Shown: positions 31,779-38,083 of the stretch, in pieces
Position numbering within the stretch: the stretch's first letter is position 1
How the letters are laid out: each line of letters opens with the position of its first letter
Assembly: GCA_001314545.1 (NCBI GenBank)
Contig: LIHN01000019.1
Span: 1-64,000, forward strand
Direction of reading: 5' to 3'
DNA from: Bacteroidetes bacterium HLUCCA01
Lineage (GTDB): Bacteria > Bacteroidota > Rhodothermia > Balneolales > HLUCCA01
DNA: 64,000 nt
Notes under the pieces: model-generated
The model's database searches: none
What the model was told of the DNA's origin: nothing
The model's input: the letters and a program-made list of their open reading frames with translations, nothing else
Position numbers and translations under genes: made by a program

Positions 31779-31874
31779 AGGTTCCCTGAATTATTTCCAA
31801 ATTGTTGCCAGGGTGTATAAATACGCATTTTTTCGCTATCATTTATGAACAATATGCCCCCGGCATTTCTTCCT

Positions 31875-34088
31875 ATGAATGTAAAGAACACGTATCTGCT
31901 ACCCCTGACGGCCCTGTCACTACTGCTGATTCTGCTCGTAGTGCCGCCAGCGGAAGCCACTGATCAGACACCGGTCAGTACCCGGAATGACACAACCGGC
32001 GCAGGTCCCAGAGTTGGGTTGGTACTCAGTGGTGGCGGAGCCAAGGGACTGGCGCATATAAGCATACTCAAGGCTCTGGAGCAGGTTAATATGCCCATCG
32101 ATTTTATCGCTGGAACCAGCATGGGCAGTATCGTTGGAGGGTTGTACGCCATTGGCTACACCCCCGAAGAAATTGAAGACATTGTCTACCAGGCAAACTG
32201 GCCCCGTTTATTTGACGACAGGGAAAGTCGCTGGCTAATCCCGATCGAAGAAAAACAGTGGGATGAAATGTACATGCTCAGTCTTCCGGTTGAAGGGCTG
32301 GGCATCAGTCTGCCAAGTGGCGCCATACGAGGTCAGCAAATCGGAAAAATGCTCTCCAGACTGACCGCACACATGCACCACGTCAACGATTTTAATGATT
32401 TCCCCATTCCCTTCCTGGCTATTGCAACCAATTTGGGCGACGGCAGCGCGATGGTGCTCCGTGAAGGGATGTTGCCGGATGTCCTGCGTGCAAGCATGTC
32501 TATTCCGTCCGTGTTTGAACCCGTGCGAATCAACGGAGCCACTGCCATAGACGGTGGCGTTGCCCGAAATTTCCCCGTACGCGACGTGCTGGATATGGGC
32601 GCCGACTTTGTCATCGGTGTCAATGCTTCCACCGCCTCAAATGAACCCGACACCCTGGATTCATCCCTGCTTTCGGTGCTCAATCAGACCGTGCTTTTTC
32701 ATATATCAAAGACTACACTGGAGCAGTCCGGACTGGCCGACATCGTAATTGACCCTGACATCGGTGATTTCGGCTTGCTGGACTTTGACGATGTTGAAAC
32801 AATTATGAAGGCGTCTGATGCGTATGTCGCTGCACACATTCCGATGCTGCAGGCCACTGCTGATTCCCTTAACGCCTTGCGCTCAGACCCGGGAAAACGT
32901 CACCGCTATCACCCTGAGCGCCCGGAGGAATACAATATTGCGTCCATTGAACTTCAGGGATCCGGAAGTTACAATCAGGAAGTGATTCTCTCCGAACTCA
33001 CACTTTCGCCGGGGAGTACCTACACCATTGAGACTATAGAACGGGCGGTTGACAGGGTTTATAGCCTGCCATACTTCGAACGGGTTACCTATACCTTGAC
33101 TGACGGGGAAGACGGCGGGAAACGACTGATCTTGCGATTTTCAGAGCGGAATATGGATCGCTTCAACATCGGTATGCGCTACGACAATCGACATAAAGCC
33201 TCTATCCTGCTGAGTTTACGATTACGGAACCCAACCAACATAGATGCCTCACTTCGTCTGAGTCTCAGGCTGGGCGAAGAGCCCATGGGAGACATCCAAT
33301 ATTTTTATTATCGTGGATGGAAACCAAAACTAGGGATTAACCTTCAGGCCAATTACACAGCCCGACGGAATTTCGTCTATGATGAACAAGATGTAATAGG
33401 TACTGTGGAAAGTGATGTTTTGTTCAGCGAAGTGTGGATCGGCCCGGTTGTATCCAGTTATTTTCTCATGGGGCTTGGATACCGGACTGAGGTCTTTTAC
33501 CCTAAGCGGGTGGTCGGACTGCCTGAAATTGAAAAGAAATGGCAACACGTAAACCGTGCATTCGCATTCCTGTGGTACGATACACGGGATGCCGTTGAAT
33601 TTCCACAGTCGGGTCAGGAGCTGCGTATGGATGCCAGCAACGCCTTCGACTGGCTGGGAACCTCCAGTGTTTTTCAGCTGTACAGCGCACGGTGGCAATT
33701 CAATATTCCGCTGACCCCTGTGTTAACCGCATCAGGAGCTGCTTATGCCGCGGTGTCAAGCAATGATTACCCCGTACATTATCGGGTAGGATTAGGCGGA
33801 CCCGATAATTTCGGTGGATACTATCTCAATGAAATTCACGATGAATGGATCGCCTCGCTTCAAACCGGACTGCAACTGGAATTTATGGATAACCGGTTTG
33901 TTAAAGTGAAGGGGTATCTGGGCAGAGCCTCCGCCTTCAATAACATCGACCTTCAAGAGTATCCGCTCATCAGCGGGTGGAGTCTGAGCGCAGGGTTAAA
34001 TGGTGTAGTAGGTCCGGTTAGAATCACACTCAGTGGCAGTTCGCGCCACGCGTTACATTATGATTTCAGGATAGGATACAATTTCTAA
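31875..34088 (+). CDS. Patatin-POTRA-barrel outer-membrane phospholipase (PlpD-like)
   Basis: The 737-residue protein starts at the ATG at 31875, which gives a clean signal peptide (YLLPLTALSLLLILLVVPP). An earlier ATG at 31845 adds ten residues. The patatin domain (about 45-330) has the oxyanion loop GGGAKG (53-58), nucleophile S82 in GTSMG and D226 in DGGVARN, a Ser-Asp dyad of phospholipase A type. A POTRA-like domain (about 345-415; LSPGSTYTIETIERAVDRVY) and a C-terminal Omp85-type barrel follow. This is the layout of type Vd autotransporters such as PlpD. It probably acts on lipids at the cell surface. Its stop codon overlaps the amidotransferase tail on the other strand. Confidence 0.92.
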   Translation: MNVKNTYLLPLTALSLLLILLVVPPAEATDQTPVSTRNDTTGAGPRVGLVLSGGGAKGLAHISILKALEQVNMPIDFIAGTSMGSIVGGLYAIGYTPEEIEDIVYQANWPRLFDDRESRWLIPIEEKQWDEMYMLSLPVEGLGISLPSGAIRGQQIGKMLSRLTAHMHHVNDFNDFPIPFLAIATNLGDGSAMVLREGMLPDVLRASMSIPSVFEPVRINGATAIDGGVARNFPVRDVLDMGADFVIGVNASTASNEPDTLDSSLLSVLNQTVLFHISKTTLEQSGLADIVIDPDIGDFGLLDFDDVETIMKASDAYVAAHIPMLQATADSLNALRSDPGKRHRYHPERPEEYNIASIELQGSGSYNQEVILSELTLSPGSTYTIETIERAVDRVYSLPYFERVTYTLTDGEDGGKRLILRFSERNMDRFNIGMRYDNRHKASILLSLRLRNPTNIDASLRLSLRLGEEPMGDIQYFYYRGWKPKLGINLQANYTARRNFVYDEQDVIGTVESDVLFSEVWIGPVVSSYFLMGLGYRTEVFYPKRVVGLPEIEKKWQHVNRAFAFLWYDTRDAVEFPQSGQELRMDASNAFDWLGTSSVFQLYSARWQFNIPLTPVLTASGAAYAAVSSNDYPVHYRVGLGGPDNFGGYYLNEIHDEWIASLQTGLQLEFMDNRFVKVKGYLGRASAFNNIDLQEYPLISGWSLSAGLNGVVGPVRITLSGSSRHALHYDFRIGYNF

Positions 34089-34933
34089 AATACGGTCTCG
34101 GGTTCACCACGAAGGTTAGCAACGGCATTTTGTATAAAGGAAGGGATAAACCGGTCGTAGGTACGTTGCAGGTAATTCGCATCGTCCAGGCGTTTCATAA
34201 TCTGCTCAAATTTTGCCAGACCGTGCTTTTGGATTATACCGTTGCGTTGTGTTTCCTGACTAAAATGATGTGCCATGCCTACCGGATCGGCTTCCGGGTG
34301 AAACTGGGTTCCTACAATCTCCGGGGATATCCGCATGGCCATAACTGCACGCTCCAGAGGTATATGGGGTCTGATTTTCTCCAGCGCCATGATGGAGGCG
34401 CCCAGGCTCTGGATGGATTTCATACGGGGCTGCAGCACCTGCCACTCCCTGAAGTCACCGGCATAGAACGTACGACCCAGTTTGGAAAACAGCGGATCTG
34501 CCTTGCCCGCCTCGGTCAGATGAACGGGCAGAACACCGAAGGAATCGGATTTACGCGGTACCACGTCTGCAATATCAAAATGTCGGCTCATGAGTTGAAA
34601 CGAGTGGCATATTGAAAGAACATACTTGCGGGAACCGGTTGTATTGGTATTGTGATCCCATAGTGCATCCATCCACTTGAAATAGCGATACTCCCACTGC
34701 GACCCCTCCCCGTCAAACGGGCTCCCGGGTCCGCCCGATGAAATGTAGATGTCGAAATCGGTATCTGGTACTTCTGCTTTGGAGCGGACATCAAACTCCT
34801 GCATGATCACCGGCGTATTCAAATAGCGACCGTCAGATTCACTGACAAGATTACGGATACAGCGCATACCCTGGTTATCAACACCATTGTACAGATCAAG
34901 TACAGCAACACGAACCGGTTTTATTGCGGCCAT
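34085..34933 (-). CDS. Class I glutamine amidotransferase-like protein
   Basis: The 282-residue protein has the GATase-I fold with an intact triad: C109 (LSICHSFQL), H212 and E214 (TQFHPEAD), plus the oxyanion-type SSGGPGSP (65-72). It resembles the amidotransferase half of GMP synthase but without a synthetase domain. It would hydrolyse glutamine and give ammonia to a partner, most plausibly the permuted ATP-grasp enzyme encoded immediately upstream, which it overlaps by one base (TAATG). Last gene of a four-gene operon with esterase, ATP-grasp and permuted ATP-grasp. The product of the pathway is not known to me. Confidence 0.88.
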   Translation of the reverse strand: MAAIKPVRVAVLDLYNGVDNQGMRCIRNLVSESDGRYLNTPVIMQEFDVRSKAEVPDTDFDIYISSGGPGSPFDGEGSQWEYRYFKWMDALWDHNTNTTGSRKYVLSICHSFQLMSRHFDIADVVPRKSDSFGVLPVHLTEAGKADPLFSKLGRTFYAGDFREWQVLQPRMKSIQSLGASIMALEKIRPHIPLERAVMAMRISPEIVGTQFHPEADPVGMAHHFSQETQRNGIIQKHGLAKFEQIMKRLDDANYLQRTYDRFIPSFIQNAVANLRGEPETVF

Positions 34934-36291
34934 TATCTTTCGTAACGAAGAATGAATACCGGGAGGGAGCCCCCTCCGGCCGTTACATTGGCCAGATTAC
35001 TGGTTGACGTTCGCACCAGGCACCCTCCCATTAGGGGGCCGTTAATATACGGATCAAGATCGATAACTGTGGGTACGCTTTGCCATCCGCCGGGAGTTTT
35101 CATCAGGAAAGGTTCCTTAGCTATATCCACAACCTCCTGCACCACAAATCCAAACGCTATTCCGGTTTGGATGGCCTTACTCCATTGTGCTTCGGTAGCT
35201 TCAAAGCCCAGCACAACCCCCTTGCCACCGTACTCGTCGTTGGGCTTAATCACGAAATGGGCCCGGTTTCGGCCTACCATTTCCAGAAGGTCCACCATCC
35301 GGCCCCTGTACATGGTCTTGGTATCACGAAGTTTGCGGGTCCAGGGAATGTGATTGCGGATAGCCTGTAATTCAATCTGATTAAGCACATTCGTGTATTT
35401 GGGATCGGTCAGAAATGAAAACAGCGATTTCTTATGTACCAGTTTGGAGCGAAAGGAGTTCAGGTAGCAGGTTTTCTGTTGACGGTACCCTTCTTCATAG
35501 GCCTGACACTCCCCGCGGATTTCCAGAAACTCATTGGTAAGAAGTCTGCGGTACACAATGTCAATCTTTTCCCCGTTGGCATACACCCAACCGTCACGGA
35601 CCTCCAGCTCACGTGGATCCGCAACATGGCATGCATGTCCCCTGCGATGCAGATAGTCCTGAACAATGTGGAACTCATGTATGGTGGGGATGTCCTGGAA
35701 ATCGACAATGCAGAAAGTTGGTTTCTCCTCCCGACCGTCAAATTCTTCATAGTATGTGCGAAGCAGCCCATCAATAAGATGGTCAAGCGGTGAGGCAAAC
35801 CGAACCGGGTGTCTTTTAATAAACTCCCGGAAAACCGGCAGTTCACGGTAAACTTGTGCAAGTTTATGCAGGTATCCTACGCCCGCAGGGCTTTCGGCAT
35901 TCAGCTCCACAAACCGAAATGAGTCGTGCGTCAGAAACGCATCCAATCGGGCCGTGGCTGATAAACGGATTACATTGGTTGGAATGGCGGCCAATTCAAT
36001 TTCTTCGGGCGTCAGACCAAGCTCTTCTACCGCTTCCTTACTGTTGAAATGTGCCGCTGCAATTTTCAAAATAGCCTGTCTGAGCACGTAAACTGCATCC
36101 TGAACCTGCAGATAACTGCTTTCCGTGAGAAAAGCCGGACGCAGACTGTAGGTTAACGGCCGATCGCCAAAAAGCAGTTTCCGGTCTTTTTGAGTCTGCA
36201 CAAAAGCCTCGAGCATCTCCTCGCTGGCATTCAAATTGGAAGCCAGCAGGTGATGATAGTGATCAATGATATGCTGAATACTACCCTGCAT
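34933..36291 (-). CDS. Circularly permuted ATP-grasp-like enzyme
   Basis: The 452-residue protein has an N-terminal region (SYLQVQDAVYVLRQAI, RFVELNAESPAG) and an ATP-grasp core in which the phosphate-binding loop HFVIKPNDEYGGKGVVLGF comes late (about 340-360). This order is that of circularly permuted ATP-grasp proteins related to glutathionylspermidine synthase. Such enzymes join a carboxylate to an amine via an acyl-phosphate. The flanking amidotransferase suggests ammonia as nucleophile. The C-terminal SNLANVTAGGGSLPVF segment may close the active site. It follows the other ATP-grasp gene after five bases. Confidence 0.85.
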   Translation of the reverse strand: MQGSIQHIIDHYHHLLASNLNASEEMLEAFVQTQKDRKLLFGDRPLTYSLRPAFLTESSYLQVQDAVYVLRQAILKIAAAHFNSKEAVEELGLTPEEIELAAIPTNVIRLSATARLDAFLTHDSFRFVELNAESPAGVGYLHKLAQVYRELPVFREFIKRHPVRFASPLDHLIDGLLRTYYEEFDGREEKPTFCIVDFQDIPTIHEFHIVQDYLHRRGHACHVADPRELEVRDGWVYANGEKIDIVYRRLLTNEFLEIRGECQAYEEGYRQQKTCYLNSFRSKLVHKKSLFSFLTDPKYTNVLNQIELQAIRNHIPWTRKLRDTKTMYRGRMVDLLEMVGRNRAHFVIKPNDEYGGKGVVLGFEATEAQWSKAIQTGIAFGFVVQEVVDIAKEPFLMKTPGGWQSVPTVIDLDPYINGPLMGGCLVRTSTSNLANVTAGGGSLPVFILRYER

Positions 36292-36296
36292 CAGGA

Positions 36297-37235
36297 TTAT
36301 TTATGCAGTTGGTCGTTAATGTCAAAATTGGGATATGAACTCCGTTTTTCCAGTGCCTTTTTTACCGCAAATTTTGCAGTGGCAGCCACCACCCAATCGA
36401 AGTTTTCCTGACCTACACTGTTAAAATCGGCATCAGGTGCCGGATTCATAAAATCAATGGCGTAGGGTACCCCATCGCGAACCGCAAATTCTACAGTGTT
36501 CATGTCATACCCCAAAGCATTGCACAAGGCCAGCACATCACGGGTGATTTTTTTCTTGAGTTTCACCGGTACAGCCTGATCACGGACAGAAGCGTAGCGC
36601 AGGTGATGCTCTGCTTTCGGATTGTAGGGCATTACATGCACGTCTTTACGACCAATACAATAACATCGATAATAATCTTCAAAGTCGATGTCTTCCTGCA
36701 GCATCATGCAATCGGTACCGCTCTCATCGTAGGCTTTGAAAAACTCAAGCGGGGAACGCACCTTGGTAACCCCTCGCCATCCGCCGCCGTCATGGGGTTT
36801 GAGGTAGGCCGGAAACCCGATATAATCAAAGGTCCGCTGCCAGTCGATCGGATACTTCAGGTTGCGAAAGGAGTTCGATTTTGTATTGGGCGGATGTTCT
36901 TTTTGGGGCAAAATAGCTGTCTTGGGTACAGCTACACCCGCTTTTTCCGCTATGATATTGTCGATAAACTTGTCATCGGCACTCCACCAGAACGGGTTAT
37001 TGATAATGTACGTACCCTTGATGGAAGCCCATTTCAGAAACGACCGATAGAAAGAAACCTCATGGGAGATACGGTCAATGATGACATCGTAGGCCCGCAA
37101 ATCATCCATGTGGATAGTATCCAGTGCAACGAAGCTGGCCTGAACCTCTTTGGCGGCGTAGTGCGTGTTGATGTGGGCGATGAGCGCCTCGGGGAAGGAC
37201 GACTCCATTCCGCGTAGTATGCCGATTTTTTCCAT
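36297..37235 (-). CDS. ATP-grasp ligase (RimK/D-Ala-D-Ala-ligase-like)
   Basis: The 312-residue protein has a pre-ATP-grasp N-terminal domain (DDLRAYDVIIDRISHEVSFY) and an ATP-binding core with IGFPAYLKPHDGGGWRGV (about 137-155) and a metal-binding end, NTVEFAVRDGVPYAIDFMNP. ATP-grasp ligases of this type make amide or peptide bonds. Two ATP-grasp enzymes of different architecture side by side imply two successive ligations. It lies 13 bases downstream of the esterase gene and five upstream of the permuted ATP-grasp gene, all on the - strand. Substrates unknown. Confidence 0.87.
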   Translation of the reverse strand: MEKIGILRGMESSFPEALIAHINTHYAAKEVQASFVALDTIHMDDLRAYDVIIDRISHEVSFYRSFLKWASIKGTYIINNPFWWSADDKFIDNIIAEKAGVAVPKTAILPQKEHPPNTKSNSFRNLKYPIDWQRTFDYIGFPAYLKPHDGGGWRGVTKVRSPLEFFKAYDESGTDCMMLQEDIDFEDYYRCYCIGRKDVHVMPYNPKAEHHLRYASVRDQAVPVKLKKKITRDVLALCNALGYDMNTVEFAVRDGVPYAIDFMNPAPDADFNSVGQENFDWVVAATAKFAVKKALEKRSSYPNFDINDQLHK

Positions 37236-37248
37236 GAATTACCCCGTG

Positions 37249-37962
37249 TTAAAGTATGTGTTTTTGAATCATGTCCCGCCACCACGGCCAGTCGTGCTTG
37301 GTCTGGTTTCCCCAGATATCCAGCTGATGAGGCACCGATTTACGTTCCAGTTTCCGGGACATATCCACATTGGCATCCAGGCACATATCCCATTCCCCGC
37401 TCACCAGCCTGAGGTCCAGACGGCGTATATCTTCCAGATGCTGATGGTTGTTCAGGTTTGGAACATAATCTACCGGATTATTGAAATACACGTTGTCATC
37501 GTAAAAACCGTCCATGAAACCGCGAATATCAAATTTACCACTCATGGCGATGAGCTTGCCGAAACGCCCCGGATATTTCAGGACGATGTTCAACGCGTGG
37601 TAAGCACCAAAGCTGGCACCCGCACTGACGATAAACTGATTTTCGTTACGGGAGTGGATATAGGGTATCACCTCATCGTTGATATAACTGTCATACTGGC
37701 GATGACGAACGATGCGCACATACGGCGAGGCCTGCGTGTTGTAGAAGCTTTCCTTATCAACCGAGTCCACGCAAAATACCTGATTGTACCCTTCTTCAAT
37801 CTGCCGGCGCAGGGCACTGATCATATGGAAGTCTTCCCACTCATGAAACCGACCCATACTGGATGGAAATACAAGCACTGGAGTGCCGCTGTGTCCGAAG
37901 ACCAGCATTTCCATATCTCTGCCCAGACTGGGACTCCACCATTTCACATATTCCCGATGCAT
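37249..37962 (-). CDS. Esterase, alpha/beta-hydrolase fold
   Basis: A 237-residue cytosolic alpha/beta hydrolase (putative-esterase family). The nucleophile elbow is GASFG with S117; acid candidate in SGEWDMCLD and catalytic His in KHDWPWW near the C-terminus. The N-terminal VKWWSPSLGRDMEMLVFG is typical of this family. It opens the operon with the two ATP-grasp genes and the amidotransferase. It may release or trim the pathway product. A terminator at 38052-38083 separates it from glgC. Confidence 0.87.
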   Translation of the reverse strand: MHREYVKWWSPSLGRDMEMLVFGHSGTPVLVFPSSMGRFHEWEDFHMISALRRQIEEGYNQVFCVDSVDKESFYNTQASPYVRIVRHRQYDSYINDEVIPYIHSRNENQFIVSAGASFGAYHALNIVLKYPGRFGKLIAMSGKFDIRGFMDGFYDDNVYFNNPVDYVPNLNNHQHLEDIRRLDLRLVSGEWDMCLDANVDMSRKLERKSVPHQLDIWGNQTKHDWPWWRDMIQKHIL

Positions 37963-38051: not shown

Positions 38052-38083
38052 AAAGGATGCATCCCATCGGGAATGCATCCTTT
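38052..38083 (-). terminator. Terminator after glgC
   Basis: AAAGGATGCAT and ATGCATCCTTT form an 11-bp stem, extended by CCC/GGG with one bulge, and on the - strand a T-run follows. It separates the glgA-glgC unit from the esterase operon. Confidence 0.85.

Follow-up and report, generated by a model that had tools for sequence, protein, structure and literature searches.

The synthesis of glutathione and glutathionylspermidine by GCS, GSS and GspSA is the nearest worked example for the gene set described here. N-acetylglutaminylglutamine amide, a small dipeptide amide, is the joint product of an ATP-grasp enzyme and an amidotransferase. Amidoligase neighbourhoods that mix ATP-grasp enzymes, GS-like/GCS2 ligases and peptidases were reportedly collected by Iyer et al. 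in 2009, many of them as predictions. This amidoligase survey is cited in PMC4431377, and the E-64 ligase Cp1B and YgiC/YjfC are described in PMC12568646. Cp1B is a stand-alone ATP-grasp enzyme that turns a small acid into an amide, after which a second ligase acts (PMC12568646). The original prediction had taken the set for a ligation pathway that a characterised homologous operon with a known product would explain away; our literature search found none that combines a permuted ATP-grasp, an amidotransferase, an esterase and a carboxylate-amine ligase. Iyer et al. 2009 may list this order, so the neighbourhood was possibly described before, and new here are only the variant and the evidence for an exchange of parts.

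The set lies in the window, by which we mean the whole analysed stretch of 64,000 nucleotides, and consists of four genes transcribed in the order EST, ATG, CPG and GAT (Table 1). The gaps are 13, 5 and -1 bases, and the CPG/GAT junction is TAATG, with bases common to both genes. A terminator-like hairpin precedes EST, so that the set is probably transcribed separately from the upstream glgA-glgC. A link to glycogen was rejected: glgA-glgC are set off by this hairpin and adjoin the set in the closest relatives only. Downstream, a patatin-like phospholipase with POTRA domain and Omp85-type barrel (window 31845-34088, plus strand) is convergent with GAT, and the 3' ends of the two genes overlap by 4 bases.

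Table 1 Features of the EST-ATG-CPG-GAT locus in the window
Feature	Position	Strand	Evidence
EST (PF00756-family alpha/beta-hydrolase)	37249..37962	-	PF00756 E 1.3e-12
ATG (ATP-grasp ligase, from predicted structure)	36297..37235	-	predicted structure, Foldseek, HMM alignment, invariant columns
CPG (circularly permuted ATP-grasp ligase, by profile)	34933..36291	-	PF14403, PF04174, profile match to 3n6x
GAT (class I glutamine-amidotransferase fold, by family and triad)	34085..34933	-	PF00117 E 7.4e-7, invariant triad
Terminator-like hairpin, 14 pairs + T tract, between glgC and EST	38052..38083	-	consensus scan + sequence

The candidate catalytic residues of EST, Ser117 (in GASFG), Asp192 and His223, are retained by 90% or more of a set of 66 orthologues and would form its catalytic triad. 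EST has a weak structure match to the esterase 6vh9 and no obvious signal peptide. ATG gave no Pfam match, its family being without a Pfam model, and it falls outside the named RimK-family ligases (TIGR00768, 32 bits against a cut-off of 143.4). Its AlphaFold model, predicted with 40 relatives (pLDDT 91, pTM 0.88), was matched by Foldseek to D-Ala-D-Ala ligase (Ddl), ArgX/LysX and RimK (E ~1e-13, TM 0.6-0.7), which places the modelled protein in the ATP-grasp fold. Lys146, the GGGW loop, Glu249, Asp261 and Asn264 are invariant among these 40 relatives. D-Ala ligases bind metal by an Asp, a Glu and an Asn, and in an HMM alignment to the D-Ala ligase 3r23 Glu249, Asp261 and Asn264 of ATG fall on these Asp, Glu and Asn residues with one inserted residue.

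CPG scores 32.5 bits with PF14403 (cut-off 32, E 5.7e-8) and 27.8 bits with PF04174 (cut-off 23.1), and its profile matches 3n6x, a putative glutathionylspermidine synthase, with an E value of 6.7e-9; on these matches it is classed as a circularly permuted ATP-grasp protein. The triad of GAT, Cys109-His212-Glu214, is intact and invariant in its relatives, and NCBIfam models for stand-alone glutamine amidotransferases match it below cut-off. By triad and family together GAT can be assigned to the class I glutamine amidotransferases. The original prediction had named four same-strand genes with these gaps, the families esterase, ATP-grasp, permuted ATP-grasp and amidotransferase, and an intact Cys-His-Glu triad; the ORF coordinates and profiles bear it out on each point, and active-site residues are kept in all four proteins.

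In a sample of 297 genomes of the phylum, CPG is present in 16, 15 of which belong to the window's class, the window included. Of the other 14 CPG genomes in this class, 13 have the order ATG-CPG-GAT, and EST was also recognised in 9 of these; in the remaining genome EST, ATG and CPG are linked and GAT lies on another contig. This order is conserved far beyond chance. The neighbourhood survey that had been proposed as a check, with lack of conserved linkage as the outcome that would speak against the pathway, thus came out in its favour. All 16 CPG genomes in the sample also carry ATG, as do 68 of the 69 genomes with GAT (Fisher p 1e-37, for 297 genomes that are not independent). Therefore, GAT belongs to the pathway even in those genomes where it is unlinked to ATG; in others, GCS2 homologues are unlinked. 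ATG has a much wider distribution than CPG: among genome contigs we confirmed at least 560 ATG matches, the best 80 of which are from Balneolota, other Bacteroidota, Chlorobiota/Ignavibacteria, Acidobacteriota and one Armatimonadota-type record. The set is patchy nevertheless, since ATG, CPG and GAT are absent from all listed members of f3, which is the largest family within the order that the window belongs to. ATG may also have a function of its own in some genomes, because they carry it alone.

Neighbourhoods were read at 128 loci, each with a different ATG sequence. The window's type, EST-ATG-CPG-GAT, is found at 15 of them, EST-ATG-GCS2-GAT-C4 at 16 (Bacteroidota and Ignavibacteria) and complete EST-ATG-GCS2-M29-C4 at 27, mostly in Acidobacteriota. 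The set in the window is a derived variant, of Balneolia/Rhodothermia type, of this wider conserved module. GCS2 is a carboxylate-amine ligase of the YbdK/PRK13515 type. C4 matches neither Pfam nor NCBIfam models; the best PDB match of its predicted model (pLDDT 91) is 3n6x, the same structure that CPG matches, and further matches are eukaryotic glutathione synthetases, Cp1B, YgiC/YjfC and the glutathionylspermidine synthetase of E. coli (GspSA). The predicted fold of C4 is that of glutathione/glutathionylspermidine synthetases. By sequence, hhalign gives C4 and CPG a probability of 21-40%, which is no more than suggestive of a relationship; the idea that C4 is simply homologous to CPG by sequence was rejected, the profile comparison being too weak and the agreement one of fold only.

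CPG and C4 were found together at none of the 128 loci, and CPG and GCS2 only at one (L100). CPG apparently takes the place that GCS2 and C4 have in other lineages, C4 being predicted to have a fold like that of 3n6x. Except for L100, all loci with CPG group in a single supported clade of the ATG tree, which was built from 128 unevenly sampled sequences by a short search with no bootstrap; at some loci genes are hidden by the end of the contig. A search of the window's genome, which had no positive control, did not find C4.

Several other arrangements were seen. ES9, a second PF00756 esterase, often follows GAT in the class of the window (for example L020:11907-12851), and ES7, a further one, is divergent upstream of the module in Acidobacteriota and other Bacteroidota (for example L082:6117-6980). 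Two acidobacterial loci have genes inserted between EST and ATG, coding for a Ro60-like TROVE/vWA protein and a membrane dipeptidase M19 (L098:6544-7884 and L056:1528-2703). One ATG clade is without EST, GCS2 or CPG (L057, L060, L178, L179, L111, L185 and L186); at L057 ATG is followed by smpB, and at L060 an aromatic amino acid lyase comes second after ATG, behind one other gene. In this clade ATG may work by itself.

The operon position of GAT is taken in Acidobacteriota and some Bacteroidota by an M29-type metallopeptidase, here called M29, a protein of 350 residues that matches PF02073 in part. GAT and M29 share none of the 128 loci, and many loci have neither. The ATG tree of 128 sequences implies three or more switches between GAT and M29; the M29 locus L177, for example, is placed with strong support beside the GAT loci L106 and L157. 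Since a Cys amidase has thus repeatedly been exchanged for a metallopeptidase in one slot, hydrolysis of an amide, for example of a gamma-glutamyl bond, is a more likely role for GAT than the donation of ammonia, although a common slot does not prove equal chemistry. The ammonia donor had been the original proposal. On this reading GAT would be a glutaminase proper and supply one of the ligases with ammonia, and the product would have a terminal amide. Membership in the class I family with an intact triad is in line with this, as are the strict co-occurrence of GAT with ATG by genome and the retention of GAT where GCS2 and C4 are lost. However, a metallopeptidase is not expected to supply glutamine-derived ammonia, and yet M29 fills the slot in many loci and nothing does in others; moreover, GAT carries no fused synthase domain. 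We consider an ammonia donor rather unlikely. Of the ligation pathway as first proposed, the notion of an uncharacterised pathway with conserved linkage stands, whereas the role given to GAT in it is weakened by the M29 slot, the mutual exclusion and the repeated exchanges.

We favour, tentatively and with slightly more doubt than confidence, a cytosolic pathway in which two successive acyl-phosphate ligations of small carboxylic acids and amines are followed by trimming by amidase and esterase. Gene order, conservation, folds, active-site residues and the exchange of parts are what we build on; from these, the chemistry, the substrate and the order of steps would be as follows. ATG and CPG would each convert a carboxylate into an acyl-phosphate and couple this to an amine, giving two amide bonds on a small substrate, probably of the gamma-glutamyl or amino-acid type, and in other lineages GCS2 plus C4 would act in place of CPG. 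GAT, as a Cys-His-Glu amidase, or M29 would then hydrolyse an amide, for example to remove a gamma-glutamyl carrier group, and EST would cleave an ester or thioester, either of the substrate or of the product. It is tempting to speculate that the module makes an unrecognised small amide or gamma-glutamyl metabolite, common throughout Bacteroidota and Acidobacteriota, and that its ligase and hydrolase parts were exchanged between lineages while the product was kept, a possibility that we regard as open to considerable doubt.

A specific form of the two-ligation pathway would be the synthesis of a glutathione- or glutathionylspermidine-like thiol or conjugate. GCS2 would be the gamma-glutamyl ligase, ATG would add the second amino acid and C4 or CPG would catalyse the third ligation, with GAT or M29 serving turnover and the esterase hydrolysing S-acyl compounds. 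That GCS2 is of the YbdK/PRK13515 group, that the folds closest to C4 and CPG are those of glutathione or glutathionylspermidine synthetases and that EST is a PF00756 hydrolase would all agree with such a product, although the true substrates of YbdK-group enzymes are unclear. However, there is no gamma-glutamyl ligase (GCS2) in the operon of the window, and at least eight CPG genomes (G013, G030, G034, G096, G131, G135, G183 and G219) have no PRK13515-type gene over cut-off, from which it follows that CPG does not need GCS2. PRK13515-type genes are present in the CPG genomes G022, G104, G112, G123 and G251 of the class sample and also in genomes of that sample without CPG. In addition, the host has bshC (G000:C7:337616-338695) as well as bshA and therefore probably already makes bacillithiol. 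Taken together, a thiol or conjugate of this kind is unlikely as the product.

In the host genome, a gap of 58 bases separates bshA (TIGR03999, 545 bits) from the PRK13515-type GCS2 gene that comes after it; the pair lies at L120:8261-10598, which corresponds to G000:C17, about 130960-133300. A role of this GCS2 as a substitute for BshC was rejected, bshC being present. In a GCS2 protein tree the unlinked GCS2 of the host is not close to the operonic ones.

The ligases could also act on something larger, the two ATP-grasps modifying a protein or a precursor peptide, as in protein or peptide tagging or RiPP synthesis, and GAT or M29 being the removing peptidases. The modelled ATG fold is indeed also like RimK and LysX/ArgX, which act on proteins, and the 2009 amidoligase survey is said to have predicted peptide-tagging systems. 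However, a gene for a precursor or carrier protein is neither linked nor conserved, and no transporter or protease is constant in the module's neighbourhoods. No conserved small ORF or peptide gene was seen upstream of the set, a region that is itself not conserved, and the gaps between the four genes are too small to hold a peptide gene; a RiPP/graspetide assignment was rejected for want of a linked precursor, with a distant precursor being possible. Modification of a protein or precursor peptide is, in our judgement, very improbable, and we return to the cytosolic pathway with two ligations of small acids and amines.

The core ligase ATG is present in about one third of the sampled genomes of the phylum (107 of 297), often with the same operon partners, and also in many Acidobacteriota. 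A conserved soluble pathway of such breadth with no known product suggests that a common metabolite has been overlooked, and the exchangeable parts of the pathway, GAT for M29 and CPG for GCS2 plus C4, are direct clues to the bond chemistry.

As in the neighbourhoods that Iyer et al. 2009 are said to describe, several amide ligases are found here with peptidases and hydrolases. The genes for N-acetylglutaminylglutamine amide likewise pair an ATP-grasp with an amidotransferase, but there the amidotransferase is of class II and an acetyltransferase fusion is involved, whereas the module has the class I GAT and two ligases. The model of C4 matches Cp1B (9cjn; PMC12568646). Unlike the module, the Cp1B pathway is fungal and its second ligase is adenylating, and GAT, M29 and esterase have no counterpart in it. 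With glutathione and glutathionylspermidine synthesis the module shares the profile match of CPG to 3n6x, the predicted GSS/GspSA fold of C4 and, in its relatives, a GCS2 ligase. It differs in the Ddl/RimK/LysX-like fold of ATG and in the extra esterase and GAT or M29, and because the set in the window lacks a defining enzyme, the gamma-glutamyl ligase, we do not file the module as a glutathione/glutathionylspermidine pathway.
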